The notes under the pieces: generated by a model
Told to the model about the DNA's origin: nothing
Database searches by the model: none
The model's input: only the letters and a program-made list of their open reading frames with translations
Made by a program: the position numbers and the translations under genes
Part shown: in pieces, positions 7,377-22,528 of the stretch
How the letters are laid out: each line of letters starts with the position of its first letter
How positions within the stretch are numbered: position 1 is the stretch's first letter
NCBI GenBank assembly: GCA_030613785.1
Contig: JAUWLF010000003.1
Coordinates: forward strand, 1-64,000
DNA length: 64,000 nt
Reading direction: 5' to 3'
From: Chloroflexota bacterium
Lineage (GTDB): Bacteria; Chloroflexota; Anaerolineae; UBA7937; B3-Chlor

Positions 7377-10187
7377 CTAAGCGGCTTCCACCCGCACGGC
7401 GCAGACCTTGTACTCTGGAATCTTGGCCTGCGGGTCCAAGGCTGGGTTGGTGAGGAAGTTGGCCGACGACTCGGGAAAATGGAAGGTGGAGAACACCAGC
7501 CCCGGCTCCACCCGGTCGGTCACCTCGGCTTTGGCAACGATCTCGCCCCGTCGCGAAGCCACCTTCATCAACTCCCCATCGCCGATTCCTGCCTTTTGAG
7601 CGTCATGAGGGTGGATTTCGACCAGCGCCTCGGGGTACATCGCTACCAGGTTGCGAGCGCGGCGAGTCATCTCGCCACCGTGAAAGTGGTAGATGACGCG
7701 CCCGGTGGTCAACACCAGCGGGTACTCGTCGTCGGGCAGCTCGTCCGGCGGCACGTGATCCACCGCAGCGAAGCGCCCCAGCCCCCGGCTGAACTTTCCC
7801 ACGTGCAGAATTGGCGTACCCAGGTGGTCTTCGCTGGGGACGGGCCATTGGAGTTGGTCTCCCTCTTCCAGCCGCCGATAGGTGATGCCCGCGTAGATGG
7901 GCGTGAGGACGTTGACCTCGGCCATCACGTCAGCCGCCGATCCATAGTCCCAGCCAGCGTGCGTGGCATCATTGCTGGGTGTGGCGGCGCCCCGGGCGAT
8001 CATTCGCTTCGCCAGCTCGGCAATAATCCAAGCATCGTCTTTGGCTTCGCCGGGTGGATCAACCGCCTTGCACACGCGCTGCACCCGTCGCTCGGTGTTG
8101 GTGAAGGTGCCATCTCTCTCCGCAAAACTGGCCGCCGGGAAAATGACTTCGGCAAACTGGCACGTCTCGGTGAAGAATATATCCTGCACCACGAGGAACT
8201 CGGTCTGCTGAAGCGCGTGACGCACATGATTCAGATCCGGGTCGCTGACCATCGGGTTCTCGCCGATAACATACAGGCAGCGCACCTTTCCTTCCTCGGC
8301 AGCCTCCACCATCTCCGTGACAGTCAGCCCCACTTGGTTCGACAGCGACACGCCCCAGGCGCTCTCAAACTTCTCCTGGATGGCCGGGTCGGTCACCTGC
8401 TGGTAACCAGAGTAAACGTTGGGCAAGCTGCCCAGATCGCACGCTCCCTGTACGTTGTTTTGACCGCGCAGCGGGTTGACGCCACCTCCCGGCACGCCCA
8501 GGTTGCCCAGCAGCATCTGCAGGTTGGCGCAGCTCATCACGTTGGCTACGCCGACGGTGTGCTGGGTGATGCCCATAGCGTACAACAAGGAACCAGGCCG
8601 GTTTTCGGCCATCATCCGTGCGGCCTTTTCGATGTCCTCGGCCGGCACCGCAGTGATCTCGCTGACCACCTCGGGGGGATACTCACCGACGACCGCCTTC
8701 AGCTCCTCAAAGCCCTCGGTCCGCTCGGCGACAAACTCCTCATCTTGCCAGCCTTCGCGGAGAATGACGTGCATCAAGCCGTTGAGCAAGGCGATGTCCG
8801 TGCCCGGCTTGTGCTGTAGGTGTAGGTCAGCATAGTCGACGATGTCGATGCGGCGCGGGTCGGCCACGACGAGCTTGGCTCCACGGTGCCGCTTGGCTCG
8901 TCGAATCTTGGCGCCGATGACGGGATGCTGCTCGGTGGTGTTGCTGCCGATGATGAAAATGCACTCGCTCTCCTCTGCGATGTCCCGGATGGAGTTTGTC
9001 ATCGCGCCGCTGCCAAAGCTTGTCACCAGACCGGTGACAGTAGAGCTGTGTCAAAGCCGGGCACAGTGGTCGATCGTATTGGTCCCCAGTATCTGCCGTG
9101 TGAACTTGTTGAAGAGATAGTTCTCCTCATTCGTACACTTGGCAGAGGCCAGCACCGCAAGCGCATCGCCACCATCCGCCTTCTTCACCTCCGTGAACTT
9201 GTTGGCGACCACGTCTAGCGCCGTGTCCCAGTCGGTTTCGACAAGGGCTCCGCGATCGGAGCTCGCAGAGTGAGGATCAGCGACTCTCCAGTCTCCAATC
9301 TCTACTCTCCTCTCCACATCCGTCAACCACTGGGCGCGCACCAGCGGGCGGGTCAGACGGTCAGGGTGATGCACGTAGTCGTAGCCGTAGCGCCCCTTGA
9401 CGCAGAGCGACATCCCGTTGACTGGGGAGTCCTCGGCGCTGGTGACACGCACGATCTTGCCGTCGCGCACGTTCAGATCAAAGGTGCAGCCCACTCCGCA
9501 GTAGGCGCAGGTGGTCCGCACCTTGGTGACTTGATTGACACGCCCCAGGCCCAGGCTCATCTTGTCGTACAGCGCACCGACGGGGCAGTAGGCCACGCAC
9601 TGCCCGCAGCTTTCACAGTTGGCATCTAGCATCAACTGGTCGGCACCAGCGACGAGTTTGGTCTTGAAGCCGCGCTGGGCAAAGTTCCAGACATCCCGGT
9701 TCTGAATCTCGTTGCATGCGCGGATGCAGCGGCCGCAGAGGATACACTTGTTGCGGTCAACGAACACAAAGGGATTCGAGTCCGTGTCAATTTCATAGGA
9801 ATGGCGACTGCCGCCGTGCTCGGGCCAGCTCACGTCATACTCATAGGCTAGGTCCTGCAGCTCGCAGTCACCGTTCACCTCGCACGTCATGCAGTCGTTA
9901 GGGTGATCGGTCAGCAGCATCTCCAGGACGAACTTGCGGGTTTCGCGCGCCTTCTCGCTCTCGGTGTTGACCACCATCCCCTCAGCGATGGGCGTCGTGC
10001 ATGCGGTTTGCAAAGTCCCCGCTTTCTCCACCGAGACCACGCACAGGCGGCACGCGCCCACATTGGTCAGGTCTGGATGATGGCAAAGGGTAGGGATGTT
10101 GATGCCCGCCACACGCGCCGCTTCCAGTATAGTGCTGCCCCCGGGCGCAGTGACTGTTTTGCCATTGATAGTTAGCGTGACACTCAT
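7377..10187 (-). CDS. fdhA: NAD-linked formate dehydrogenase catalytic subunit, selenocysteine-containing
   Basis: Oxidises formate or reduces CO2 at a Mo/W-bis(pyranopterin) centre. The 936-codon frame runs through one in-frame UGA at 9051-9053 (residue 379). The order is an N-terminal [2Fe-2S] domain, the NuoG-type His/Cys cluster segment (HPNDCMTCEVNGDC), two [4Fe-4S] ferredoxin motifs, the CAYCGVGC cluster motif, then the catalytic and C-terminal molydopterin domains. The UGA replaces the catalytic Cys in HCARL-U-HSST and is followed by a SECIS-like hairpin. ATG 10187 is preferred over GTG 10196 because GGGGTGG precedes it. Genes for the NuoF- and NuoE-like electron partners lie directly upstream, so an NAD(P)-dependent, possibly bifurcating complex is expected. 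Confidence 0.93.
9017..9047 (-). promoter_or_regulatory. Bacterial SECIS element in fdhA
   Basis: Starting 11 bases after the UGA (9053-9051), TGTCACC (9039-9033) pairs perfectly with GGTGACA (9027-9021) around the loop GGTCT (9032-9028). This loop is the same as the SelB-binding loop known from E. coli fdhF. AGCT at 9047-9044 and 9020-9017 can add a lower stem with a CTAC bulge. Position and loop meet the known requirements for UGA decoding. Confidence 0.85.
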
Positions 10188-10205
10188 AGTTTCCACCCCG
10201 TGTGG

Positions 10206-12050
10206 TTAACTGACAACGATGGCGTCGAATTTGCAGACTTCCATACACAAGCCGCATCGCTCGCATAGCTCTTGATCGATGACGTGCGGTTCGCGTTTTT
10301 CGCCGCTGATGGCTTTGCTGGGACACTTCCGCGCGCATACCATGCAGCCGGTGCAGAGATCTTCAATGATTTCGTAGGTGATCAAGGCCCGACACTTCCC
10401 TGCCGGACAGCGTTCTTCTTCGATGTGCGCCCGGTACTCGTCTTCAAAGTGCAACAAGGTGGACATCACAGGCGCAGGCGCCAACTGGCCCAGCGCGCAC
10501 AGCGAGCCGTGCTCGATCCCCTGCGCCAGCCGCCGAATCTCATCCAGATCCTCCAGCTTCCCCTCGCCGGCCATGATGCGCTCCAAGACCTCCAGCATCC
10601 GGGTGCTGCCGATGCGGCACGGCGGGCACTTGCCGCAGCTTTCGTCGCACACGAACTGCATGAAGTACTTGGCAAACTCGACCATGCATGTGGTCTCGTC
10701 GGCGACGATCATCCCGCCGGAACCCATTACCGAACCAGCCTCAACCAGCGAATCGAAATCTACTGGAGTATCCAGGTGCTCTTCAGGCAGACATCCACCC
10801 AACGGACCGCCGGTCTGCACGGCCTTGAACTTGCGACCCAAGGGGATGCCCCCGCCCACGTCATAGATGATCTCGCGCAGCGTGATCCCCATCGGCACCT
10901 CGATCAATCCCGTGCGGTTGACCATGCCTGTCAATGCAAAGACAGCAGTGCCGGGGCTGCCTTCAGTCCCCAGGTTCTTGAACCAAGCTGCGCCCATCCG
11001 GATGATGCGCGGCGTGTAGGCGTAGCTCTTGACGTTGTTCACGTTGCTGGGTTGTCCCCACAGACCTGAGACAGCCGGGTATGGGGGTCGCGGCCAAGGC
11101 TGACCACGCTCCCCCTGGATCGAGGCCATCAGCGCCGTCTCTTCACCACAAACGAATGCCCCGGCCCCCTCCTTGATGATAATGTCGAAGCTGAAGTCTG
11201 ACCCCAGAATCTTCTCACCCAGCAGGCCCTGTTCTCTGGCCTCTTCCAGAGCGATTTCCACCCGCTTGATGGCCAGAGGATACTCCGCTCGACAGTAGAT
11301 GTACCCAGCTTCGGCCCCGATGGCGTAGCCAGCGATGATCATGCCCTCGATCACGGAGTGGGGATCCCCCTCTAGCACAGAGCGATCCATGAACGCGCCT
11401 GGATCCCCTTCGTCGGCGTTGCAGATCACGTACTTGGGCCAGTTCTGCGTCTTACGGGCGAATCCCCACTTGACGCCGGCGGGAAACCCGGCCCCTCCAC
11501 GACCGCGCAGTCCTGACTCGGTTACCTCTTCGATCACCTCGTCCGGTGTCATCCCGGTCAGCACCTTTTCGAGCGCGACATAACCCTCGAAGGCCAGATA
11601 ATGGCCAATGTTCTCTGGATCAATGATCCCACAATTGCTGAGCAGGATGCGCTGCTGCTTGCCATAGAAGCCGATCTCGTACCATCGCTCAACAGTGGTC
11701 TCGCTGGCCGGATCATGGTATAGGAGCCGCTCTACAGGGTGTCCACCCACGATATGCTCTTCAACGATGACTTCTGCGTCGCTGGGCGTGACCCGGGTGT
11801 AGAAGGTCTCCTCTGGGTGCACGACCACGATGGGACCCTCTTCGCAGAATCCGAAGCAGCCCGTGCGCCGTACCTCCACCTGTTCGCTCAGATTGCGCCT
11901 ATCCAACTCCTCGCAAAGGGCCTGGCGTACTTCCGCGCTGGCTGACGAGGCGCACCCGGTGCCCCTGCAGACAGCTATCCACCTGTGCTTCGGGTCCTTG
12001 ACTATGTCTATCACTTCCGCCGGTATTGCCAATTTCTCTCGCACACTCAT
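10206..12050 (-). CDS. NuoF/HydB-like NADH-binding flavoprotein subunit
   Basis: Diaphorase-type subunit that exchanges electrons between NAD(H) and the formate dehydrogenase or Hdr partners. The 614-residue product has an N-terminal thioredoxin-like [2Fe-2S] domain (about 20-110, Cys in CRGTGC and CFGFC). The NuoF FMN/NADH domain follows (GRGGAGFPAG near 185 and CGEETALMASIQG), then the NuoF [4Fe-4S] site (ESCGKCPPCRIG). Two C-terminal ferredoxin clusters (CTGCMVCARKCP and CERCGLCMEVC) complete it. This architecture is that of HydB, HndC and HylB proteins in bifurcating hydrogenases and formate dehydrogenases. It lies 18 bases upstream of fdhA and 24 bases downstream of the NuoE-like gene. 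Confidence 0.9.
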   Translation of the reverse strand: MSVREKLAIPAEVIDIVKDPKHRWIAVCRGTGCASSASAEVRQALCEELDRRNLSEQVEVRRTGCFGFCEEGPIVVVHPEETFYTRVTPSDAEVIVEEHIVGGHPVERLLYHDPASETTVERWYEIGFYGKQQRILLSNCGIIDPENIGHYLAFEGYVALEKVLTGMTPDEVIEEVTESGLRGRGGAGFPAGVKWGFARKTQNWPKYVICNADEGDPGAFMDRSVLEGDPHSVIEGMIIAGYAIGAEAGYIYCRAEYPLAIKRVEIALEEAREQGLLGEKILGSDFSFDIIIKEGAGAFVCGEETALMASIQGERGQPWPRPPYPAVSGLWGQPSNVNNVKSYAYTPRIIRMGAAWFKNLGTEGSPGTAVFALTGMVNRTGLIEVPMGITLREIIYDVGGGIPLGRKFKAVQTGGPLGGCLPEEHLDTPVDFDSLVEAGSVMGSGGMIVADETTCMVEFAKYFMQFVCDESCGKCPPCRIGSTRMLEVLERIMAGEGKLEDLDEIRRLAQGIEHGSLCALGQLAPAPVMSTLLHFEDEYRAHIEEERCPAGKCRALITYEIIEDLCTGCMVCARKCPSKAISGEKREPHVIDQELCERCGLCMEVCKFDAIVVS

Positions 12051-12074
12051 GGTTACAGATCCGTCCTCTCCATC

Positions 12075-12578
12075 TCAAGCATCGGTTGCCCTTTGCGCGC
12101 TCGCGATCTGCTTTCTCACCTGCCGCACTAACGTTTCTGGCCTCATTCGTCCCATTACCTGTCCATCCAGAGTAGCAACAGGCGCCAGGGCACAAGAGCC
12201 CAAGCAATAGACGATCTCTACCGTCAACTCGCCGTCCTCTGTCGTCTCACCGGGGCCGACACCATATTCCTCTTGGACGACGGTCATCAAGATGGCCGTG
12301 CCCTTGACGTGGCAAGCCGTCCCATCACACAATCTGAGCACATGCTTGCCTCTGCGCTCCAGGTAGAACTGAGAGTAGAAGGTCGCCACGCCATAGACCT
12401 TGCCCAACGGAACGCCAAGCCGTCCGGCGATGATCTGCAAGACGTCTGGCGGCAAATAGCCATAGATCCCCTGTGCTCTCTGCAGAATGGGGATCAGGGG
12501 GCCCTTTTGCTCTCGATACTTCTCAAAGACCGGGTCCATCAAGCAGAGATCGACTGCAGCGTTGTCGGTCGTTCCCAT
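12075..12578 (-). CDS. NuoE/HydC-like [2Fe-2S] subunit
   Basis: Small electron-transfer subunit, 167 residues, with a helical N-terminus and a thioredoxin-like [2Fe-2S] domain. The four ligand cysteines appear in the CDGTAC and CLGSC segments. The ATG at 12578 is chosen over the in-frame ATG at 12596 because AGGAG stands eight bases before it. Together with the NuoF-like protein and FdhA it forms the usual three-part NAD-linked formate dehydrogenase. The upstream gap of 240 bases to mvhD holds only a broken small frame and shows no clear promoter. Confidence 0.88.
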   Translation of the reverse strand: MGTTDNAAVDLCLMDPVFEKYREQKGPLIPILQRAQGIYGYLPPDVLQIIAGRLGVPLGKVYGVATFYSQFYLERRGKHVLRLCDGTACHVKGTAILMTVVQEEYGVGPGETTEDGELTVEIVYCLGSCALAPVATLDGQVMGRMRPETLVRQVRKQIASAQRATDA

Positions 12579-12688
12579 TTCTTGTTCTCCTGTCATCGTA
12601 ATGGCGGGGAATTGCGGATCTTGCCCTTGCGCGCCTCACAGCCTTTGTTGAGGGTCATTGTGCACAGAGGGTACTTGGGAGAGACAGC

Positions 12689-12822
12689 CTATTCACCCAG
12701 CTCCTCCCGCTCGCGGAACAGATAGAAGCCCACATGTCCTGACGTGCTTTCAGGCCTATCAATCACTACAGACCCTCCAAGTCCTCTCCCATCACGCCTC
12801 TCAGAGGTTCCAGTACCTTCAT
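12689..12822 (-). pseudogene. Possible small gene broken by a one-base frameshift
   Basis: An ATG overlapping the mvhD stop (ATGA, 12822) opens a frame of 18 residues (MKVLEPLRGVMGEDLEGL) that ends at TAG 12766-12768. A shift of one base continues into VVIDRPESTSGHV and FYLFREREELGE, ending at 12689. The joined 44-residue sequence reads like one coherent small protein with translational coupling to mvhD. Alternatively a separate 25-codon frame starts at a GTG six bases after GGAGGG. No family is recognised. A sequencing or assembly error is equally possible. Confidence 0.3.
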
Positions 12823-13226
12823 GCTGGCACTTGCCTCATCGGTGCTAACTCTCGAATGGTCTCTGTGAACTCGTCCACTATCTGGGCGAAACGCTCACCC
12901 TCCGACGCCGAGACCCACTCCAACCGCAGCCGCTCTGGCTCTATCCCCGAGAACTCCAGGATGCGCTGTAGGATGGGGATACGCTTCGCTGTGCGATGAT
13001 TGCCATTGATGAAATGGCAATCTCCGTAGTGGCAACCCAGCACCAACACCCCATCGGCTCCCTCCCGGAAGGTGCGCAAGATCAACTCCGGCGAGATCCG
13101 GCCCGAGCACAACACCCGAATGATATTCACATTGGGCGAGTACTTGATCCGTGAGATGCCCGCCAGATCCGCGCCGGGATAACTACAATACGTACACGCA
13201 TAGGCCACGATCTTGGGTTCGCCCAT
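12819..13226 (-). CDS. mvhD: MvhD-type [2Fe-2S] electron-transfer subunit
   Basis: MvhD-like proteins carry electrons between a hydrogenase or formate dehydrogenase and HdrA. The 135-residue product has the family's cysteine set: CTYC near the start, a Cys in LCSGR, and the CHYGDC segment around residue 65. The ATG overlaps the hdrA stop by one base (TGATG), so the two are co-translated. In methanogens a homologue in this position can contain selenocysteine, but here all sites are Cys codons. It links the HdrABC module to the formate dehydrogenase module encoded downstream. Confidence 0.92.
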   Translation of the reverse strand: MGEPKIVAYACTYCSYPGADLAGISRIKYSPNVNIIRVLCSGRISPELILRTFREGADGVLVLGCHYGDCHFINGNHRTAKRIPILQRILEFSGIEPERLRLEWVSASEGERFAQIVDEFTETIRELAPMRQVPA

Positions 13227-15187
13227 CAGGCCACCTCCAGAGATCGCAGAGCTCCCTGCATCTCCGCGAGCAACTGCTCATCCGTGAAATGCAGCACCGT
13301 GATGGCTTTGGAGCGGCAATGGCCTGCACAAACCCCGCAACCCTTGCACGCCGTCTCGTCTACCTCCACGTGTCCTTCGACCAACTCCAAGGCGCTGTAC
13401 GGGCAGGCCACCACGCACTCGCCACAACCGGAGCAAAGTCCGATGTTCACCTGAGCAACGGAAGGCTCCAGAGTCACCTTTCCCTGGTCCATCATGGCCA
13501 TGGCCGCCGCAGCCGCTGCCCCCGCCTGCGCTACAGTGTCGGGAATGTCTTTGGGCCCTTGACAAGCGCCGGCGATGAACACTCCGTTGGAGGCGGTTTC
13601 AACCGGGGCCAGCTTCGGATGCTTCTCCAGGAAGAAGCCATCTCCGCTGCGGCTGAAGCCAAATAGGTGAGACACGTCCGCCGCGTCACGCCGTGGTTCC
13701 AGACCTGCGCTCAGGATGACCATATCCACCGGAATCTGCATCAAGCGGCCCAGATTGGCATCCTCCGCCTTGACCAGCAACCTCCCGTCGTGAGGGACTA
13801 TCTCGGCCGGCCTGCCCCTGATGAAGATGACACCCTCCTCCTGGAGCCGCTCGTAGAACTCCTCGTACCCTTTGCCACCGGTGCGCATGTCTATGTAGAA
13901 CTCGTAGACCTGAGCACCAGTGGCCTCCTTGACCAGATGAGCGAGCTTCAGCGAGTACATGCAGCAGATCCGCGAGCAGTGCCTGTTGTACTTCTTGTCG
14001 CGGCTGCCAACACAGTGCACGATGGCCAGGCTCTCCGGCTCTCGCCCATCCTTCAACACAATCCGGCCTCTGGTCGGTCCGCTCGCATCCACGAGCCGCT
14101 CCAACTGCAAGCTGCTCAGGACGTTGTCGTATCTACCGTAGCCATACTCGCTAATCCGAGAGCAGTCGAAGAGGTCGAAGCCGGTGGCCACGATGATCGT
14201 ACCCACCTCCAATTCCACGACCTGGTCTTGCTGCTCGAAATCAACCGCTCCGGTGGGGCACAGCTTCTCGCACACCCGGCATTTGCCACTCTGGAAGTAG
14301 CGACAGTTCTCCTCGTCGATTACCGGGACCCGCGGTATAGCCTGGGCGAACGGGATGTAGATCGCCGTCCTCGTCCCCAAGCCGCCATCGAACTCGCTGG
14401 GGATCTTCTTGGCGGGGCATTTCTCCTGGCACAGGCCACAGCCCGTACATACATCTTCGTCCACATAGCGGGCCTTCTTACGTACCCTGACCTTGAAGTT
14501 GCCTACGTAGCCCGCAACTTCCTCTACCTCGCTATAGCTCAGAATCTCGATGTTTTCGTGCTGTCCCACGGACACCATCTTCGGTGTCAGTATTCAAGCG
14601 GAACAGTCCAGGGTGGGGAAGGTCTTGTACAACTGAGCCATGTAGCCCCCGATGCTGGGCTCCCTCTCCACAAGGTACACCTTCTTCCCCGAGTCGGCGA
14701 TGCGGAGAGCGGCCTCGATGCCAGCGATGCCCCCACCCACGATCAAACAGGCTGGCTGAACCGGAACCTCCTTGACGTGTAGTGGTTCATGGTGGGCCAC
14801 TCGGTACACGGCAGCGGCCACCGCTCGTTTGGCTCTTTCCGTGGCCTCGTCGGGATCCTCGGTCACCCAAGCGACCTGCTCTCGGATGTTCGCCATCTGG
14901 AAGTTGAAGGGGTTGAGCCCTGCGTCCTCACAGGCTCGCCGGAAGGTGAGCTCGTGCATGAGGGGAGAGCAGGAGGCCACCACGACCCTGTTCAGACCCG
15001 ACTCTTCGATCTCTTCCTTCAACAGGTCTTGACCAGGATCGGAACACATGTACTGATACGTCCGAGCAGTCACGACCCCGGGCAGTTCCGCCGCGTACTC
15101 CGCCACCGCATCCACGTCCACTTTGTCCGCGATATTAGTCCCGCACAGACAAACGAAGACCCCTATCCTTCTTGGTCTATCACTCAT
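13226..15187 (-). CDS. hdrA: Heterodisulfide reductase subunit A, selenocysteine-containing
   Basis: FAD protein where flavin-based electron bifurcation occurs in Hdr complexes. The 653-codon frame contains one in-frame UGA at 14594-14596 (codon 198). The N-terminal HdrA domain (about 8-110) is followed by the FAD motif VGGGIAGIEAA near 150. The conserved segment FPTLDCSA-U-ILTPKM follows, where HdrA proteins have Cys at the UGA position. Then come a ferredoxin insert (CTGCGLCQEKCP plus CEKLCP), a second nucleotide-binding region, and two C-terminal [4Fe-4S] motifs (CSGCGECVVACP and CKGCGVCAGHC). Sec in HdrA is established in some methanococci and reported in bacteria. The start follows GGAGATGA. 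Confidence 0.9.
14562..14588 (-). promoter_or_regulatory. Candidate SECIS hairpins after the hdrA UGA
   Basis: Two alternative stems follow the UGA at 14596-14594. GACACC/GGTGTC (14588-14583 with 14576-14571, loop GAAGAT) starts only five bases after the UGA. TGTCC/GGACA (14574-14570 with 14566-14562, loop GTG) has its loop 24 bases after the UGA, inside the usual distance for bacterial SECIS elements and starting with G. They share bases, so only one can form at a time. The second fits known rules better. Confidence 0.45.
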
Positions 15188-15206: not shown

Positions 15207-16403
15207 TCAACTCTCAGCGTTGCGGATCGATTCCAGCACCAGTTCGCTCAAGTCGAAGGTTCTCATCCTGATCTTGGCCCGACGAGCGCCGGTGAGCAGG
15301 GTGCGCTTGCACTGCTGGCAGGCGGATACAACCGCCTCAGCCCCTGTTTCCTGCGCCTGCTCCATTCGCAGCATCCCTACCTGGCCCGTCACCTCCCGAT
15401 CAGAGATCTCAACGTCTCCCCCACCACCACAACACGTCGCGTCCTCCCCATAGCTCGCCATCTCCCTGAACTCGAGCCCCGGAATGCTATTCAGAATGGC
15501 GCGGGGAGCATCGTACACCCCACTCTTGCGACCCAGGTCACAGGGATCGTGGTAGGTCACCACCCTCTCCACTGGACCCAGCTCGATCCTGCCCTCCTCT
15601 ATCAACTGCCACAGATACTCGGTGGCGTGCAAGATCTCTAATTCGGGGGGCAACTCCACGAACTGGGGGTAGATGTGCATCCACGCATAGTAGCAGGAGG
15701 GGCACGTAGCCACCAGTTTCGTCGAACCCAGCTCTTTCACCCGCTCTACATTATGGATCGCCAACTCCAGAACCAGGTCCTTCATCCCACCGCCATACAG
15801 AGGATACCCACAGCACCACTCCTCACCTCCCATGGTGGTGAAACCAACGTCGGCAGCCTCGAAGATCTGGACCAGCGCTTGCGGTATGCTGTAGGCCTGG
15901 GGATAGAAGGCCGAGACACAGCCCACGAAGTACAGAACCTCGCTCCCCTTTTGGGCCTCGATGCCCTCCGGCATGTGCTCCAGGTTCTCCGCCCAGATCA
16001 GCCTGGTCTCATTGTCGTCCCCAGAGATATTGTACTTCGTGGTTACCGTGTCCCGCAAGATGCCGATGCCTTCCGGTACTTCCAACCCCTCCTGGACCGC
16101 ATATCGCTTTAGCATCAACATCGTCTCGGTCAGCTCGATGCCTCGCGGACAGCGCACCGTGCAGGCCTGGCAGGTGGTGCATAGCCAGAACGTACGGCTG
16201 TTCACCACTTCCTCCTTCAGCCCCAACTGGACCAGCTTCCACAGTTGCCGTGGCGTGTAGTCCATAGCATAGGCTGTGGGACAGGAAGCAGAACAGGTGC
16301 CGCACTGGATGCACGTGCGCAGTACATCAAGATCGGGAGTGACCTCTGCGGCAAACTCAAAATCCAGTTCACGAGTTGTGAGATCCAGAACCTCTGCAAC
16401 CAT
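15207..16403 (-). CDS. HdrD-like fused Fe-S/CCG protein, copy 1
   Basis: A fusion of an HdrC-type ferredoxin domain and an HdrB-type catalytic domain, 398 residues. Two [4Fe-4S] motifs (CIQCGTCSASCP, CTTCQACTVRCP) occupy about 30-90. Two CCG modules follow: EWCCGYPL with CPSC, and TCCGGGGD with CQQC. These bind the noncubane clusters that cleave disulfides in HdrB and HdrD. The ATG at 16403 is taken after GGAGCG. It stands between hdrC and hdrA. Its closest relative in the window is the product at 19746, which shares the NISGDDNE and RLIW motifs. GlpC/LutA-type oxidases are related, but the hdr context favours disulfide chemistry. Confidence 0.85.
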   Translation of the reverse strand: MVAEVLDLTTRELDFEFAAEVTPDLDVLRTCIQCGTCSASCPTAYAMDYTPRQLWKLVQLGLKEEVVNSRTFWLCTTCQACTVRCPRGIELTETMLMLKRYAVQEGLEVPEGIGILRDTVTTKYNISGDDNETRLIWAENLEHMPEGIEAQKGSEVLYFVGCVSAFYPQAYSIPQALVQIFEAADVGFTTMGGEEWCCGYPLYGGGMKDLVLELAIHNVERVKELGSTKLVATCPSCYYAWMHIYPQFVELPPELEILHATEYLWQLIEEGRIELGPVERVVTYHDPCDLGRKSGVYDAPRAILNSIPGLEFREMASYGEDATCCGGGGDVEISDREVTGQVGMLRMEQAQETGAEAVVSACQQCKRTLLTGARRAKIRMRTFDLSELVLESIRNAES

Positions 16404-16409
16404 CAACCC

Positions 16410-16814
16410 CTACGCTCCCTTCTCCCGTCCCTCCTGACCACGGACCAGTGCGTGCACCCATTCGACGGGAACGAGTTCCACCGCCTCCAGCCCGTGGATT
16501 CGTCGTATTTCGTTTATCTCCTCACTCATCGCCAGCGCGTATCCGGATCGCAGCACGCTCACCAGATTGGCTTCATGCCCTGCCGGAGCCTCTTCGTCCC
16601 TCCTCATCTCCATCATGATGGCATGGATATCCACGCCTTGGGGACATGCCTCCTGACAGCGCCAACATGAGGAACACAGCCAACTGGAGTAATCCTCTTC
16701 TCCACACAGGAAAGAGGTGATGGAGTGGGCGCCTAGCCTTTCCACGATGCATACCTCACGGCACAGGCCGCACTGCGTACATCCCTCCAACAGTGCATTC
16801 AACCCTCCGCCCAT
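16410..16814 (-). CDS. hdrC: HdrC-type ferredoxin subunit
   Basis: A 134-residue protein with two [4Fe-4S] motifs, CTQCGLCREVC near residue 12 and CSSCWRCQEACP near 48, followed by a helical tail. It should carry electrons between HdrA and HdrB. Its ATG overlaps the hdrB stop by one base (TGATG), so the pair is translationally coupled. The stop lies six bases from the next start. Confidence 0.85.
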   Translation of the reverse strand: MGGGLNALLEGCTQCGLCREVCIVERLGAHSITSFLCGEEDYSSWLCSSCWRCQEACPQGVDIHAIMMEMRRDEEAPAGHEANLVSVLRSGYALAMSEEINEIRRIHGLEAVELVPVEWVHALVRGQEGREKGA

Positions 16815-17647
16815 CACGCCAGACTTCCCTGGAGTTTCCTGGCCATCACAGATCCAATGCCCAGTTCTGCCGGAGCCATACCCATGGCTAGACCCAGCAA
16901 CTGCGGCAGCGTCAGCACCGGAAGTCTTTCTTCCGGAGCACGTCCTTTCATCAACCCCTGAAACCGCTCCAGCAGTAGCTGGCAGTTACCACATGCATCC
17001 ACCAATACGTCTGCCTCGGCGGCCGATCCTAGCTTCCGCTCACCGGCCTCCAGACCCAGTTCCTCATCGGCCAGATACAGGGTCGAGCCGCAACAGTCGT
17101 ACTCCGCCTCGTAATCGATCACCTCCGCCCCGGTCAACTCCACAATGCGGCGCATGGCCTGGGGCTGAAGAGGGTCGTCGAAACCAAGGATTTCGTGAGG
17201 GCGAAACGCCTGGCAAGGGTGCGTCAGCGCAATCTTCAGCGACAACTCTACGCCGACCCTCTCCTTCAGAACCTCCAGCCGCTCGCTGAGCACATGGATC
17301 AGGTGTCGCACGGTCGTCGCTCCGTCGAAATGCAAGTCGATCTCATGCAGCCTCTCGTTCACCGCAAGGCAGAGAGAGGGATCCATCAAAGCCGCCTTGG
17401 CCCGCAGCAGGGTGTTGGTGCAGTTGCCACATAGTGTCAGAACATCCAACTCCATGCCCTCCGCAAGAGCGAGGTTGTAGGCTGCAAGGTAGAGCCACTC
17501 GTCTGTGAAGGACTCCAGAGGAGCACCGCAACAAGCGGCCCGAGGTATGCTCTCCAAGACGATGTCCAGTTCCTTCAGCACCCTCCTGGCGGCTTTCTCG
17601 TACTGAGGCATGCGCTGGAGGACCAGACAGCCTGGGAAGAACGCCAT
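16814..17647 (-). CDS. hdrB: HdrB-type CCG catalytic subunit
   Basis: A 277-residue protein with the two CCG repeats of heterodisulfide reductase B: PGC, then ACCGAP and CGNC near residues 6-85, and HPC, then DCCGST and CGNC near 155-235. These ligate two noncubane [4Fe-4S] clusters that cleave a disulfide or persulfide. The start could be GTG 17656 or ATG 17647; neither has a strong ribosome binding site and ATG is used here. It follows the lipoate ligase gene by about a dozen bases, which ties lipoate chemistry to the Hdr complex. Confidence 0.87.
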   Translation of the reverse strand: MAFFPGCLVLQRMPQYEKAARRVLKELDIVLESIPRAACCGAPLESFTDEWLYLAAYNLALAEGMELDVLTLCGNCTNTLLRAKAALMDPSLCLAVNERLHEIDLHFDGATTVRHLIHVLSERLEVLKERVGVELSLKIALTHPCQAFRPHEILGFDDPLQPQAMRRIVELTGAEVIDYEAEYDCCGSTLYLADEELGLEAGERKLGSAAEADVLVDACGNCQLLLERFQGLMKGRAPEERLPVLTLPQLLGLAMGMAPAELGIGSVMARKLQGSLA

Positions 17648-17659
17648 CCTGGTCACAGA

Positions 17660-18697
17660 TCAACCGACCACTGCCTTGGCAAAATCGGCCGGCTCGACCC
17701 CTGGAGATTCTATGCCCTGATCCTCATAGAACCGAACGATGGTTTCCGAAACCTCAGCCTCTCTCTTACCGACTACGGCCTCCGAAAGCTGGGCCAACTT
17801 GTCAGCCGGATAGAAGAAGAAGTCACCGGAAAGAACGAGCGAGGTGATAGCGCCATCTGTGACCTCGACGTCTCCCCGAATCAGGCCCCCTGGTGCCTTA
17901 TGAACAAGGTGCTTGACATCGACGCCCGCTGCGATCTTGACGGTACGCCCTTCCGTGTGTCTGCCCATCTTGTGGAGCCATTCATCCGTGGAGAACTCCG
18001 CGGCTAACTTGGACACCTCATTCCTCAACTCGGAGTCCACCTCTGCGCGTGGCAGTGGGCCCAGGAGCTTCTCGAAGTTGCGAGCCAGGCTGGCCGTGAG
18101 GGACTCCCGAGATGGCACTTCCCCCAACTCTCGTTCGATGGTACTGAGGTTCTCCCGCATGCTCTTGTATACCTTGTCCCGGAACTTCTCATCCGGCACC
18201 CTCAGCACTCGGCTCATCATCTCATAGTTGAAATCGAGGATCAGGTTGCCCACCAAGACCAGGTATTCGCCGATCTCCGCTGCTCCGTTGCCCGATATCT
18301 TGCGGTTGTTGGCAACAATGTCGTTCACCGGCTTGTACTCCGCAGGAATCCCTATCTCCCGATACGTTTCGATGGGAGGTTGCAAGAACTTGCGGTAGAA
18401 GGAAGCCTTGTTGGACGGGGCCAGAGGGTTGTCCTTGTGTATGACCACCTGATAGAAAAGCTGGCCATTGTCCAGGTAGACCCCTCCCCCTCCCACCTCC
18501 CGACGGAACATGGGTATGTCGCTAGTGCGACAGAACTCCACATCCACTTCCTTCTCCAGGTCTTGATGATAGCCGATGCAGACATAGGGAGAGGCGGGAG
18601 AGAGCAGCACCAGCGCCTCCCGTTTCAGGCGAGGCAGAGCGTGGTAGATCAGTTGCGAATCGGCCCAGGGAACGCTCCCTAGGTCATAAATGTGCAC
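17660..18697 (-). CDS. Lipoate-protein ligase A family enzyme
   Basis: Activates lipoate with ATP and attaches it to a lysine of an acceptor protein. The 345-residue product has the catalytic domain motifs RREVGGGGVYLDNGQLFYQ (about 72-90) and the lysine loop NRKISGNGAAE (about 137-147), then a C-terminal accessory domain. The start is GTG, with AGGAGG seven bases upstream and the promoter at 18733-18761. It is the first gene of the Hdr-formate dehydrogenase unit, and a lipoyl-acceptor gene lies 4 kb upstream. That pairing resembles the dedicated ligase plus LbpA of sHdr clusters rather than a housekeeping LplA. Confidence 0.88.
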   Translation of the reverse strand: MHIYDLGSVPWADSQLIYHALPRLKREALVLLSPASPYVCIGYHQDLEKEVDVEFCRTSDIPMFRREVGGGGVYLDNGQLFYQVVIHKDNPLAPSNKASFYRKFLQPPIETYREIGIPAEYKPVNDIVANNRKISGNGAAEIGEYLVLVGNLILDFNYEMMSRVLRVPDEKFRDKVYKSMRENLSTIERELGEVPSRESLTASLARNFEKLLGPLPRAEVDSELRNEVSKLAAEFSTDEWLHKMGRHTEGRTVKIAAGVDVKHLVHKAPGGLIRGDVEVTDGAITSLVLSGDFFFYPADKLAQLSEAVVGKREAEVSETIVRFYEDQGIESPGVEPADFAKAVVG

Positions 18698-18770: not shown

Positions 18771-19709
18771 TCACCTGACTAGCACATCCAACGCCATGGC
18801 CAGAAAAAGCACGAAGAGATAGGGACTGGAAACCTTGAACATGACCCAGGCCTTTTCCCGAGATGGATTCAGCGCCAGAATCACGTTGCTCACCGTGATC
18901 ACCAACCCAAAGACCAAAGCTACGCCCAGATAGATGACACCGAAGCCGCCCACGAAGTAGAGGGCCAGGGAACAGAGGTACATCAACACCACCGTAGCCA
19001 TGGTACAGCGCGTCGTCTTCTCCAGGGAGAGCACAGCGGGCAACATCGGGACGCTGACTTTCTTGTAGTCCTCCGTGTGGAAGATCGCCAGGTTCCAGAT
19101 GTGATTGGGAATCCACAGCACCACTATGGCCGCCATGAGCAACGCGGTGAGGTTGACACTACCGGTAACCGCCGCCCACCCGAATAGCACAGGTAGCCCG
19201 CCGCTCAATCCACCAAGTATGATATTCAACGGGCTTCTCTTCTTCATCAGGAGACTGTAGACCACGACGTTATCGACGAAGCCCAGTAACCCCCACAGAA
19301 AGGCCAGCGCGTTGATGCTCCACGCCAGGGCCAGGGAGACCACCGCCAGCAACAGTCCCCAATACAGTGCTCTCTGAGGCGGGCGGATTCTGCCGCTGGG
19401 TATAGGACGCCGCTTCGTCCTCTCCATCACACCATCCATGTCACGGTCAATGTAGCAAGTGATGGTGTTCGCTCCAGCGCAGCCCAAAGTGACGGCAGCA
19501 ATAGCTGTGATAAAAAGATCAGAGGGGAGATTCCATCCGCCAGCGGCAATGACCATCGTGGCCAGCGCTGTGAACACGAGGAGCAGAACGGAAGCAGGCT
19601 TCGTTACCTCAACATAGGCCCACAGATCCCTCAACACAGATGGGGACCGCAAGCCCTCGTGATGATGAGCATGTCTCTCTCCTTCGCACTGCACATCATG
19701 ACTGCCCAT
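18771..19709 (-). CDS. ctaB: Protohaem IX farnesyltransferase (haem O synthase)
   Basis: UbiA-family membrane enzyme that adds a farnesyl group to haem B. The 312-residue protein has about eight helices. The first prenyl-diphosphate motif is N-x7-DRDMD with the RTKRRPIPSGR segment (about 85-110), followed by the SPLNIILGG segment and DYKKVSVPMLP near 210, typical of CtaB rather than MenA or UbiA. The N-terminus is His-rich (HAHHH). It is placed 36 bases after an HdrD-like gene, an unusual neighbourhood, since no cytochrome oxidase genes are in view. Confidence 0.85.
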   Translation of the reverse strand: MGSHDVQCEGERHAHHHEGLRSPSVLRDLWAYVEVTKPASVLLLVFTALATMVIAAGGWNLPSDLFITAIAAVTLGCAGANTITCYIDRDMDGVMERTKRRPIPSGRIRPPQRALYWGLLLAVVSLALAWSINALAFLWGLLGFVDNVVVYSLLMKKRSPLNIILGGLSGGLPVLFGWAAVTGSVNLTALLMAAIVVLWIPNHIWNLAIFHTEDYKKVSVPMLPAVLSLEKTTRCTMATVVLMYLCSLALYFVGGFGVIYLGVALVFGLVITVSNVILALNPSREKAWVMFKVSSPYLFVLFLAMALDVLVR

Positions 19710-19745
19710 CACCCAACCACTGTCTCAGACCATATCACAAGGGGA

Positions 19746-20960
19746 TCACTCTTCCATGACCATGGCCACCAGCTCCACGATGTCCAACACCCGCATTCTC
19801 ACCTTCTCCTGCCGCGCCGCGGTCATCAACGTCCGCTTGCATTGCTGACAAGCCGAAAGCAGAACCTGGGCACCTGTGGCCTGTGCCTGTCCGAGGCGTC
19901 GGCTCGCCACCGCCTCGACCAACTCCTGGTCGCACATCGCCACATCACCTCCGCCGCCACAACAGAGGGCATCTCGCCTGTTCTCCTCCATCTCCGTGAA
20001 AGAGATGCCAGGGATACTCTGTATCACATTTCGAGGAGCGTCGTAGATGCCGCTATTCCTCCCCAGGTCGCAAGGATCGTGATACGTCACTGGCCGCTCG
20101 AACTCGCCCAGCGTGATGCTCCCCTCACCGATCAGTTCCTCTAGGAGCTCACTCAGATGCTGAACTTCGAAACCCAAGGGTTCTCCGATGATTCTGGGAT
20201 ACTCGTGGAGCCACGTATGATAGCAGGAGGGACAGCCCGCCACCAGTTTCCCTGCCCCCGTTCTCCGCACCGCTGCCACATTGTGCTCCACCAACTCCTC
20301 GACAGCGTCCCCCATCCCAGCGATAATCAAGGGATATCCGCAACACCATTCTTCGCTCCCTAGCGTGGTGAAGTCCAGGCCAGCTCTCTCCATCACCCCG
20401 ACAGTGGCCTGGGGGATGCCGTAGGTCTGCGGATAGAAAGCGGGAGTACAGCCCACGAAGTAGACTATCTCCGCCTGTTCCTTGCCTGTCACGCCCTCGG
20501 GTACCCGTTCCAGATTCTCGCTCCAGATGAGGCGGTCCTCGTTGTCGTCTCCGGAGATGTTGTGCCTGGTAGTGACCATCTCACGCAGAGTGTCGAAAGC
20601 TCCGGGGTAATGGCCCAAGTCCACCAAGTGCTCGCGCATGGCAATCCACAAGGGGCGAGTATCTATCTTAACCGGACACACCACCTTACAGCGTCCGCAG
20701 AGGGTGCAATCGTAGACTCCACCCGAGTACTCCTCCACTGCTACCTCAGTGGGGAACCTGGGCCCAAAGAGCCTGGCGCGGAGGCCATACTGAGCACCTA
20801 TGAAAGACCTCATGCGGCGTATCTTGTCCGCCGGTTGCAGAGGCTCCTCGCCTTTCTCTGCGTACGTGGGGCACCACTTAACGCACTCGCCACACCGAGT
20901 GCAGGCGTCAAGCTCCACCAACTGCTTGACTGAGTAGTGAGAAAGGTCAAACTTGTCCAC
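19746..20960 (-). CDS. HdrD/DsrK-like fused Fe-S/CCG protein, copy 2
   Basis: A 404-residue paralogue of the product at 15207. Two ferredoxin motifs (CTRCGECVKWCP, CTLCGRCKVVCP) precede two CCG modules (EWCCGYPL with CPSC, and LCCGGGGD with CQQC). It starts with GTG, 10 bases downstream of AGAGGTGAA, and overlaps the upstream NarI-like membrane protein gene by 14 bases. Pairing of a membrane cytochrome b with a CCG protein is the plan of DsrMK and HdrED, so this copy is inferred to be the membrane-bound disulfide reductase of the cluster. Confidence 0.85.
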   Translation of the reverse strand: MDKFDLSHYSVKQLVELDACTRCGECVKWCPTYAEKGEEPLQPADKIRRMRSFIGAQYGLRARLFGPRFPTEVAVEEYSGGVYDCTLCGRCKVVCPVKIDTRPLWIAMREHLVDLGHYPGAFDTLREMVTTRHNISGDDNEDRLIWSENLERVPEGVTGKEQAEIVYFVGCTPAFYPQTYGIPQATVGVMERAGLDFTTLGSEEWCCGYPLIIAGMGDAVEELVEHNVAAVRRTGAGKLVAGCPSCYHTWLHEYPRIIGEPLGFEVQHLSELLEELIGEGSITLGEFERPVTYHDPCDLGRNSGIYDAPRNVIQSIPGISFTEMEENRRDALCCGGGGDVAMCDQELVEAVASRRLGQAQATGAQVLLSACQQCKRTLMTAARQEKVRMRVLDIVELVAMVMEE

Positions 20961-21801
20961 AGTTCACCTCTGCCGACACAGCGGGCGCTTCCTCAGATGG
21001 CAGCGAGTTGACGGTGGCGATGATGGCACCAGCCATAGCGTGGAAGAACTTGCTGAAGGGGATATAGGCTATCACCACTGAGGAAAACAAGGCGTGGAAT
21101 AGGAAAAGCCAGTCGTGCATCTCCCCCCAAGGCAGAGGTGCAGTCCTCACCAGTGAGGCGATGGGGTAGCCAATGAAGGCATAGACAGCGGTGGGAGGAA
21201 GCTCCCCAAACTCGAAGGCCAAGCGGCAGATCTCCGCCAGATAGCCCGATACCATGATCACGACCAGAAGGAGTATGATCTCCGTATCCACCATCCTCGT
21301 ACGCATGTCCAGTTCCCTGATCACGTAACGGCGGACGATGACGATCATCAACCCCACCATCACCACCAGCCCCCCAAACTCGTTCAGGAAGGCGGTGATC
21401 GGATGATCCTTGTTGGCGAAAATCGACGTGAAAAGATTGTCCATCTTGAGAATCGGTATCATGATGTCAACGCTTACGGCGGACAAACCGCTCAAGATAG
21501 CTAGCAAGACGATACCACCGAACACGCAGAAATGGGCTGCCCAGCGCAGCTTGTGTTCGCTGAACAGGGTGGGGTGGATAGCTCCGTCCCACACCAACGC
21601 CTTCAGCAACGCTCCCAACCTGGCGCTGAAGATGGTGGCTAGACTCGCTCTAATCAGAAACGACAGCTTCCTGCCAGCGCTGACATCGCTCCTTCCATTC
21701 ACTGTCCCCTGGAGCCAAATGGACAGGTTGAGCGCCATCCCTGCCACGAAAACGATCATAGCTGGTATGTGGAAGATCCAGAATACGAGCATTATGTCCA
21801 T
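20947..21801 (-). CDS. NarI/DsrM/HdrE-like membrane cytochrome b
   Basis: A 284-residue integral membrane protein with about six helices. Candidate haem-ligand histidines lie in the FWIFHIP segment near residue 11, in LFHALFS near 241, and in SKFFHAM near 256. This is the expected pattern of NarI-type dihaem quinone-linked subunits. It should move electrons between the quinone pool and the overlapping HdrD-like protein. It follows the lipoyl-carrier gene after a 289-base gap in the same direction. Confidence 0.8.
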   Translation of the reverse strand: MDIMLVFWIFHIPAMIVFVAGMALNLSIWLQGTVNGRSDVSAGRKLSFLIRASLATIFSARLGALLKALVWDGAIHPTLFSEHKLRWAAHFCVFGGIVLLAILSGLSAVSVDIMIPILKMDNLFTSIFANKDHPITAFLNEFGGLVVMVGLMIVIVRRYVIRELDMRTRMVDTEIILLLVVIMVSGYLAEICRLAFEFGELPPTAVYAFIGYPIASLVRTAPLPWGEMHDWLFLFHALFSSVVIAYIPFSKFFHAMAGAIIATVNSLPSEEAPAVSAEVNCGQV

Positions 21802-22090
21802 TGGTCAGACCCCACCTCTTCAGGACCCAGCAGATCTCACGCAGAACTCGGTCCCCTTGACCGGGGACACGTTGTCGTCATCTTTCCAGGCCATGCGCAG
21901 CCAGAACAGATCGCAGGCGGCAAGTCTTCAGGCATCCGGAGAAGCTCAACAGTCAGTGCTCGGCGTCATCTGCCGCCATCTCTGGCGACCGCCACGCCCC
22001 TTACAGCAAGCGCTGGACGAGTCCCCTCCACGTATTGGGCGATGTGCGTCTCTGTCTTGCACCGGTTGTTGGGCAACTTTGGCCGAGGCT
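21802..22090. other. Gap between lipoyl-carrier and cytochrome b genes
   Basis: No protein frame with a start signal and no terminator was seen in these 289 bases. The genes on both sides run on the minus strand, so the stretch is probably an untranslated part of the same transcript or holds an unseen signal. Confidence 0.4.
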
Positions 22091-22528
22091 CTATGTCTCT
22101 TCGAGGAGATCCTTGTACTTCTCTATCTCCGACTCTATGAAGGATTGGAACTCGGCGTCGGAGGCCTTGAACAGGTTATCCAGCTCACCTAGCTCTGAGG
22201 CCTCGATCTTGGCTAGCCAACCTTCACCGAAGGGGTCCTCGTTGATGGGATCTACGTCCCATTCCAACTCCTCGTTCGGTTCGGCGATAGTGCCACTGAC
22301 CATCGCCCCAATCCGGCCAACCCACTTGCCCGACTCCATGGACATGAAGGTCTTACCCTGCTCAACTGTGCGCCCAGAGCGTGGTACCTCCACGTACACA
22401 ATCTCCTTCGATATCTTCTGCGCGAATTCGGTCACGCCCTGTGTGACCACCTTCCCTTCCACGGAAGCCCAGCCGTGACTCTGATCATAGTACAGCTCGT
22501 CTGGGAAGCTATATCCACCAATATCCAT
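22091..22528 (-). CDS. GcvH/LbpA-like lipoyl-carrier protein
   Basis: A 145-residue biotinyl/lipoyl-domain protein of the glycine cleavage H family. The modified lysine is Lys68 in the hairpin MESGKWVG, followed by VSGTI. Glycine-cleavage H proteins usually have ESVKA at that turn, so this belongs to the wider LbpA-like group. No gcvT or gcvP is nearby. A lipoate ligase, three CCG disulfide-reductase proteins and HdrA are encoded within 9 kb in the same direction. It probably carries a dithiol, or sulfur, for those enzymes. The start follows AGGAGG by nine bases. Confidence 0.86.
   Translation of the reverse strand: MDIGGYSFPDELYYDQSHGWASVEGKVVTQGVTEFAQKISKEIVYVEVPRSGRTVEQGKTFMSMESGKWVGRIGAMVSGTIAEPNEELEWDVDPINEDPFGEGWLAKIEASELGELDNLFKASDAEFQSFIESEIEKYKDLLEET

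Follow-up and report, generated by a model that had tools for sequence, protein, structure and literature searches.

Genes for HdrABC and HdrD-like proteins occur in many bacteria that are not known as makers of coenzyme M (CoM) or coenzyme B (CoB), and a disulfide for these proteins to act on is known chiefly from sulfate reducers with DsrC and from sulfur oxidisers with sHdr. The same question is raised by a stretch of 64,000 nucleotides from a deep-branching Chloroflexota bacterium of the class Anaerolineae (hereafter the window; assembly GCA_030613785.1, contig JAUWLF010000003.1, positions 1 to 64,000), in which the gene of a lipoyl carrier protein, lbpA, precedes a cytochrome b gene, cytB, and an hdrD-like gene. 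On which disulfide does this putative membrane pair act? We consider it reasonably probable that HdrD-CytB is a disulfide-active membrane enzyme of the HdrED type and that its substrate is the lipoyl group borne by Lys68 in LbpA, cycling between disulfide and dithiol, with a soluble Hdr set as reductant and menaquinone as acceptor. The window genome is a metagenome-assembled genome (MAG; 95% complete, 6.6% contamination), and all relatives compared with it are MAGs as well.

The three genes are located on the minus strand. LbpA (22091..22528; 145 aa) is a GcvH-like carrier with a single lipoyl domain (GCV_H, PF01597, 109.3 bits), CytB (20947..21801; 284 aa) a NarI-like cytochrome b membrane anchor (PF02665, 38.5 bits, cut-off 22.9), and HdrD (19746..20960; 404 aa, GTG start) a 4Fe-4S dicluster protein (2x[4Fe-4S]) with two CCG domains (107.9 bits). 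The overlap between cytB and hdrD is exactly 14 bp (20947..20960). A preliminary description of the locus had given the same genes, coordinates and overlap, which are borne out by open reading frame (ORF) positions and family matches, but its proposal of a promoter shared by the three genes found no signal above chance, as the single promoter-like match upstream of lbpA agrees at 9/12 positions with 0.5 such matches expected by chance. The gap of 289 bp between lbpA and cytB contains no conserved ORF, no terminator-like site and no significant promoter signal. Co-transcription of lbpA and cytB is suggested by their common strand and by the gene order kept in relatives; the adjacency of cytB and hdrD is also kept there, but the overlap is not (absent, for example, from locus L037).

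The genomic distribution of LbpA connects it to Hdr proteins. A scan of named genomes, with LbpA alone as query and the pattern ESGKWVGR, yielded 80 LbpA loci, mostly from Anaerolineae and other Chloroflexota, and also from Desulfobacterota-type and Bacillota MAGs. Genes for Hdr-like proteins or for the lipoate-protein ligase LplA were found near 76 of these loci (flanks of up to 10 kb) compared with 2 of 23 control GcvH loci, a contrast with a Fisher p of 7e-16 that is not corrected for shared ancestry. When HdrD was used as the starting point, an orthologue was present in 26 genomes (truncated at a contig end in three), and LbpA is also present in 23 of these, in 18 cases less than 5 kb from HdrD. 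Among 121 genomes, LbpA and HdrD occur together in 23, LbpA only in seven and HdrD only in three (Fisher p 1.3e-15, phylogeny not corrected). Furthermore, LbpA and/or the lipoate ligase adjoin HdrD-CytB orthologues across families and phyla, and the ligase flanks the cytB-hdrD pair even with LbpA elsewhere (L048-L051). The gene orders vary and include LbpA-CytB-HdrD, CytB-HdrD-LbpA-LplA, LbpA-LplA-CytB-HdrD and LbpA-HdrD-CytB. Such differences between lineages argue for a linkage of LbpA and HdrD kept by selection, rather than for one fixed block inherited as such.

There are also observations that weigh against LbpA as the substrate of the membrane pair. In many loci without CytB, LbpA clades stand beside HdrABC or GlcD-HdrD, so that HdrABC could be the partner of LbpA and some other thiol that of HdrD-CytB. 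Five relatives encode LbpA on a different contig than HdrD, and in three, with fragmented assemblies, it was not found. The canonical lipoyl synthase LipA is absent from the window genome, which bears on the source of lipoate. Moreover, we infer rather than observe both the lipoylation of LbpA and its reaction with HdrD. The first two of these points would favor an enzyme acting on some other disulfide (an unknown thiol, a protein or free lipoate), with LbpA reserved for the soluble HdrABC and HdrD2 proteins. We regard this alternative as unlikely, given that LbpA directly adjoins HdrD, at a distance of 12-154 bp, in six loci (L088, L096, L097, L105, L124, and L125), and that the unit in Desulfobacterota-type loci is LbpA-HdrD-CytB.

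Turning to the membrane enzyme itself, a residue test is offered by the cryo-EM study of mycobacterial EtfD, which addresses the role of the bridging cysteine and identifies His583 as blocking catalysis (PMC13083937). HdrD carries two complete CCG sites (C171, C206, C207, C243, C246 and C297, C333, C334, C371, C374). These ten cysteines are invariant in 31 of 31 HdrD proteins of the window clade, with a serine (Ser245) at the position of EtfD His583. In contrast, proteins of the same class resembling electron-transfer flavoprotein (ETF):menaquinone oxidoreductase (EMO) have histidine at this position in 13 of 13 cases and have lost cysteines of CCG1, while DsrK of the same family has histidine there in 3 of 3 cases and has lost C171, C206, C207, and C246, so that CCG1 is gone; the DsrK encoded in the window genome retains a single site. 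This difference predicts a disulfide-active HdrD that is neither a DsrK nor an EMO, i.e., the residues point to a catalytically intact membrane enzyme. HdrD scores 97 bits against the NCBIfam DsrK model (cut-off 400), which gives 323 for a DsrK-like protein on another contig of the genome (C66), and it reaches the cut-off of none of the NCBIfam CCG families, TfrB being the best (173 vs. 385). In a tree of CCG proteins, HdrD (99%, 31 rows), HdrD2 (98%), EMO (99%), and DsrK (100%) are separate, HdrD being placed near HdrD2, its soluble paralogue encoded in the same cluster.

The only histidines invariant in the CytB alignments are H90, H236, and H254. The second haem histidine that NarI and DsrM have in transmembrane helix 2 (TM2), at the position of His66 in NarI, is replaced by Leu100 in CytB; the DsrM encoded in the window genome has both TM2 histidines. 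H90 and H254 align with His78 and His241, the haem ligands of EtfD (PMC13083937), and are the probable haem ligands of CytB. The pattern, with one histidine in TM2, one in the last transmembrane helix and no second TM2 histidine, is that of EtfD, so that one haem is expected and the pair would be of the HdrED type with an EtfD-like single-haem cytochrome. As the two-haem ligand set of HdrE was not found in CytB, the pair is classified as HdrED-like and not as HdrED. CytB lies beside HdrD in 33 of 34 high-scoring HdrD loci, and natural in-frame CytB-HdrD fusions are encoded in genomes G015, G016, G095, and G050. Among the apparent fusions at the loci, only those of L039, L043, L044, and L051 are in frame, whereas some of 655 aa (L045 and L047) turned out on inspection not to be. 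A fusion model of moderate confidence (pLDDT 74, 20 rows) has EtfD of M. smegmatis (9ojn) as its closest solved structure, over the whole chain (TM-score 0.73), followed by HdrB-type chains.

The common fold and haem pattern invite the explanation that the pair is an EMO/EtfD receiving its electrons from EtfAB, LbpA being incidental, and it is in keeping with this that the window genome has three ETF pairs and that EMO-EtfAB-EMO-LbpA-LbpA-LplA clusters exist in some Chloroflexota. However, the histidine and the cysteine losses of the EMO type are foreign to the window clade, the EMO proteins form a clade of their own, and EtfAB is absent from the window cluster and near only 1 of 80 LbpA loci, whereas the EMO-type loci L198 and L201 do have it. 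An EMO/EtfD function was rejected on the cysteines and EtfAB despite the common fold, and we consider it quite improbable.

Lys68 of LbpA stands within the motif ESGKWVG and is invariant in the LbpA clade, while the motif of true GcvH is ESVKA or, more broadly, ESVK[AT]. The predicted structure of LbpA (AlphaFold, pLDDT 88) has the GcvH fold, with the H protein of T. thermophilus (1onl) as best PDB match (TM-score 0.81-0.92, the higher value by target length). In a tree of 139 proteins with many unresolved forks, all ESVK[AT] GcvH proteins group in a single clade (100%), from which the ESGKWVG proteins are excluded. LbpA does not reach the cut-off of the NCBIfam equivalog TIGR00527 (91.9 vs. 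115.85) and exceeds only that of PRK01202, a broader subfamily model (120.8 vs. 117). A profile of window-type LbpA gave at least 170 bits in 30 of 120 relatives, the next value being 122. A role as glycine cleavage H protein was ruled out, since GcvP adjoins 0 of 80 LbpA loci but 23 of 23 GcvH loci. Four GCV_H proteins are encoded in the window genome: a true GcvH beside GcvPA/GcvPB (contig C12), LbpA in the window, a second ESGKWVG protein beside DsrE2-DsrE-DsrM-DsrK (C66) and a protein without the lipoyl lysine (C14, locus L004). At least three carriers thus have a lipoyl lysine.

It could also be argued that the cargo of LbpA is a sulfur or C1 intermediate instead of plain electrons, the cluster being a sulfur-oxidation or C1 system, as Hyphomicrobium cannot oxidise thiosulfate without the LbpA of its sHdr system (PMC6067878) and DsrE2/DsrE adjoin the second LbpA of the window genome. 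The chances of this are slim in our opinion: LbpA of the window has no cysteine, unlike sHdr LbpA with its two conserved ones, and family scans of the window proteins revealed no DsrE, TusA or rhodanese in the cluster.

The preliminary description had named the pair DsrMK/HdrED-like, with a lipoyl protein that could take the role played by DsrC in DsrMK systems. No match to DsrC (PF04358) was detected in the window genome, and 100 fetched loci (1.39 Mb) contain no instance of what we take to be the DsrC C-terminal motif; no case was found of DsrC or another carrier beside orthologues of the pair with LbpA absent. The idea of a lipoyl partner has thus gained support from the absence of DsrC, from the linkage to LbpA and LplA and from co-occurrence. 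Regarding the name, the HdrED part agrees with the two complete CCG sites, while the DsrMK part was abandoned on the DsrK score and the intact CCG1; the alignment of haem ligands showed the full set of neither DsrM nor HdrE. That the pair is a DsrMK complex working with DsrC or a similar carrier is hardly credible, for beyond the combination of a NarI-like cytochrome with a CCG protein and the weak DsrK match, it fails on CCG1, haem histidine, DsrC and score, and a separate DsrMK-like pair already exists on contig C66. The latter pair is part of a DsrE2-DsrE-DsrM-DsrK-LbpA2 cluster (L196, 13487-17160), kept in two relatives (G001 and G002), and with its ESGKWVG carrier it fits a "DsrMK with lipoyl carrier" better than the window pair does.

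Beyond hdrD, the cluster continues on the same strand down to position 7377 with genes that the preliminary description did not include, so that carrier, likely loading enzyme, likely reductase and likely oxidase are held in one cluster (22528 to 7377). The haem O synthase CtaB (18771..19712; NCBIfam 275 bits, cut-off 246) is followed by LplA (17660..18697; PF21948, 130 bits; TIGR00545), with an LplB-like C-terminal domain (56 bits at 266-343). Considering this domain together with the absence of LipA, lipoate is likely supplied by the LipS1/S2 route. Next come an HdrB-like CCG subunit (16814..17656; TIGR03288, 182 bits), an HdrC-like small 4Fe-4S subunit (16410..16817; Fer4_10, two CxxCxxC motifs) and HdrD2 (15207..16406), a soluble HdrD paralogue with HdrC and HdrB fused and 46-50% identity to HdrD. 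HdrA (13226..15187; NF040770, 261 + 533 bits for its two halves), the electron-entry subunit MvhD/FlpD (12819..13226; PF02662, 175 bits), the NAD(H)-side module (10206..12596) of NuoE (12075-12596) and NuoF (10206-12050), and the formate dehydrogenase alpha subunit FdhA with a NuoG-like N-terminus (7377..10196; TIGR01591, 670 bits) complete the set. Both hdrA and fdhA contain an in-frame TGA in a selenocysteine-like context (LDCSA-U-ILTPKM and DHCARL-U-H, respectively), and SelB is encoded in the genome (342 bits); the TGA probably specifies selenocysteine in both genes. Strand and spacing suggest one transcript from lbpA to fdhA.

Based on this gene content, LplA would load the lipoyl group onto Lys68 of LbpA, which would then act as a mobile cytoplasmic two-electron thiol carrier. 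Its disulfide would be reduced by a soluble complex of formate dehydrogenase, NuoEF, MvhD, HdrA and HdrBC/HdrD2, probably through flavin-based electron bifurcation with ferredoxin. Dihydrolipoyl-LbpA would dock to HdrD and be reoxidised at its two non-cubane clusters, the electrons passing over two 4Fe-4S clusters and one CytB haem to menaquinone, which would make the whole a lipoyl-based analogue of the HdrABC/HdrED pair of methanogens. Since HdrD and HdrD2 are so similar, and one carrier and one ligase accompany them, with HdrA, HdrB, HdrC and MvhD all present and HdrD2 encoded next to HdrA-MvhD, both proteins are most simply read as acting on the lipoyl group of LbpA, one reducing and the other oxidising it. 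Menaquinone has a potential of about -75 mV. The potential of lipoate, quoted as about -325 mV (PMC8760232), lies between menaquinone and formate, NADH and ferredoxin (or close to these), and electrons would therefore be expected to flow from LbpA to the quinone.

The position of ctaB directly after hdrD, where it is the sole copy of the genome, is common to G001, G002, and G005, while no haem-copper oxidase (PF00115) was found in the window genome (G000) or in G001, G002, G003, and G005; G025 has ctaB at the same place plus an oxidase. CytB possibly carries haem O.

Other LbpA loci show further partners. In L078, L080, L092, and L094, LbpA follows HdrA-MvhD and a [NiFe] hydrogenase (MvhA-type), which together form a methanogen-type bifurcating set. 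A variant of the membrane module, in which a multihaem cytochrome c is encoded between LbpA and CytB, occurs in L057, L068, L072, L077, L078, L080, and L087; L057 additionally has a b561-like cytochrome, and its CytB bears a fused cytochrome c3-like domain. LbpA also neighbors a GlcD-type FAD dehydrogenase paired or fused with HdrD (860 aa) in L119, L126, L128, and L133 and in L098, L104, L110, L117, and L120, and in Thermodesulfobacteriota-like loci the carrier is found beside HdrBC and GlcD-HdrD fusions; this suggests oxidation of 2-hydroxyacids onto lipoyl-LbpA. Finally, five loci of other Chloroflexota (L239, L240, L241, L242, and L245) have HdrA-EMO-EtfB-EtfA-EMO-LbpA-LbpA clusters, LplA being present in four, i.e., ETF:quinone reductase-like proteins are encoded there with two lipoyl carriers.

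Taken as a whole, the gene and residue patterns suggest that, in bacteria without the methanogen coenzymes, the disulfide linking soluble electron-splitting enzymes to the membrane may be that of lipoic acid bound to a protein. Tentatively, and with less assurance than for the enzyme itself, protein-bound lipoic acid might play in bacteria the part of the CoM/CoB heterodisulfide, with a pool of diffusible LbpA coupling HdrA bifurcation (from formate, H2 or NADH; elsewhere GlcD-HdrD) to a quinone-linked membrane Hdr in Chloroflexota, Desulfobacterota, and Bacillota, perhaps with haem O in the cytochrome of the window lineage. If true, major phyla of anaerobic sediments would share an electron-carrier circuit based on the lipoyl group.

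The idea of a lipoyl protein serving Hdr is not new, while no description of a bacterial HdrD-CytB-LbpA cluster with ligase and formate- or NADH-linked HdrA, or of its breadth, was found in the open-licence literature. DsrMK of sulfate reducers similarly combines a cytochrome and a CCG protein in the membrane with a cytoplasmic thiol carrier, but it has one CCG site, DsrC and a two-haem cytochrome. EtfD/EMO (9ojn; PMC13083937) resembles the window pair in fold, in its one-haem-b cytochrome and in the natural cytochrome-CCG fusion, whereas in the window HdrD the catalytic cysteines are intact, the blocking histidine is missing and LbpA stands in place of ETF. In sHdr sulfur oxidation, LbpA is an established component with two conserved cysteines, some archaeal LbpA excepted (Cao et al., 2018; PMC6067878). 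There, too, Hdr-like CCG proteins are encoded with a GcvH-like lipoyl protein that keeps the lipoyl lysine and with a lipoate ligase, but the window LbpA does not have the two cysteines, its partners are a membrane cytochrome Hdr and HdrA/MvhD/NuoEF/Fdh, and no sulfur-transfer genes are seen. In the Ehe cluster of Culexarchaeia, a GcvH has been suggested as the Hdr disulfide for HdrB/HdrA2B2C2 (PMC9723716); a GcvH-type lipoyl protein is likewise proposed here as the unknown disulfide, although that system is archaeal with a membrane [NiFe] hydrogenase, and the window system is bacterial with a presumably quinone-linked HdrD-CytB and a lipoate ligase. A further parallel is HdrED of Methanosarcina, the methanophenazine:CoM-S-S-CoB reductase, with its NarI-like cytochrome, an HdrD in which both CCG domains are complete and two 4Fe-4S clusters are present, and a soluble HdrABC-type complex in the same genome. 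HdrE is held to bind two haems (PMC9478090), as opposed to the one expected in CytB, and the window pair differs further in being bacterial, in presumably using menaquinone and a protein-bound lipoyl disulfide, and in having LbpA and LplA dedicated to it.

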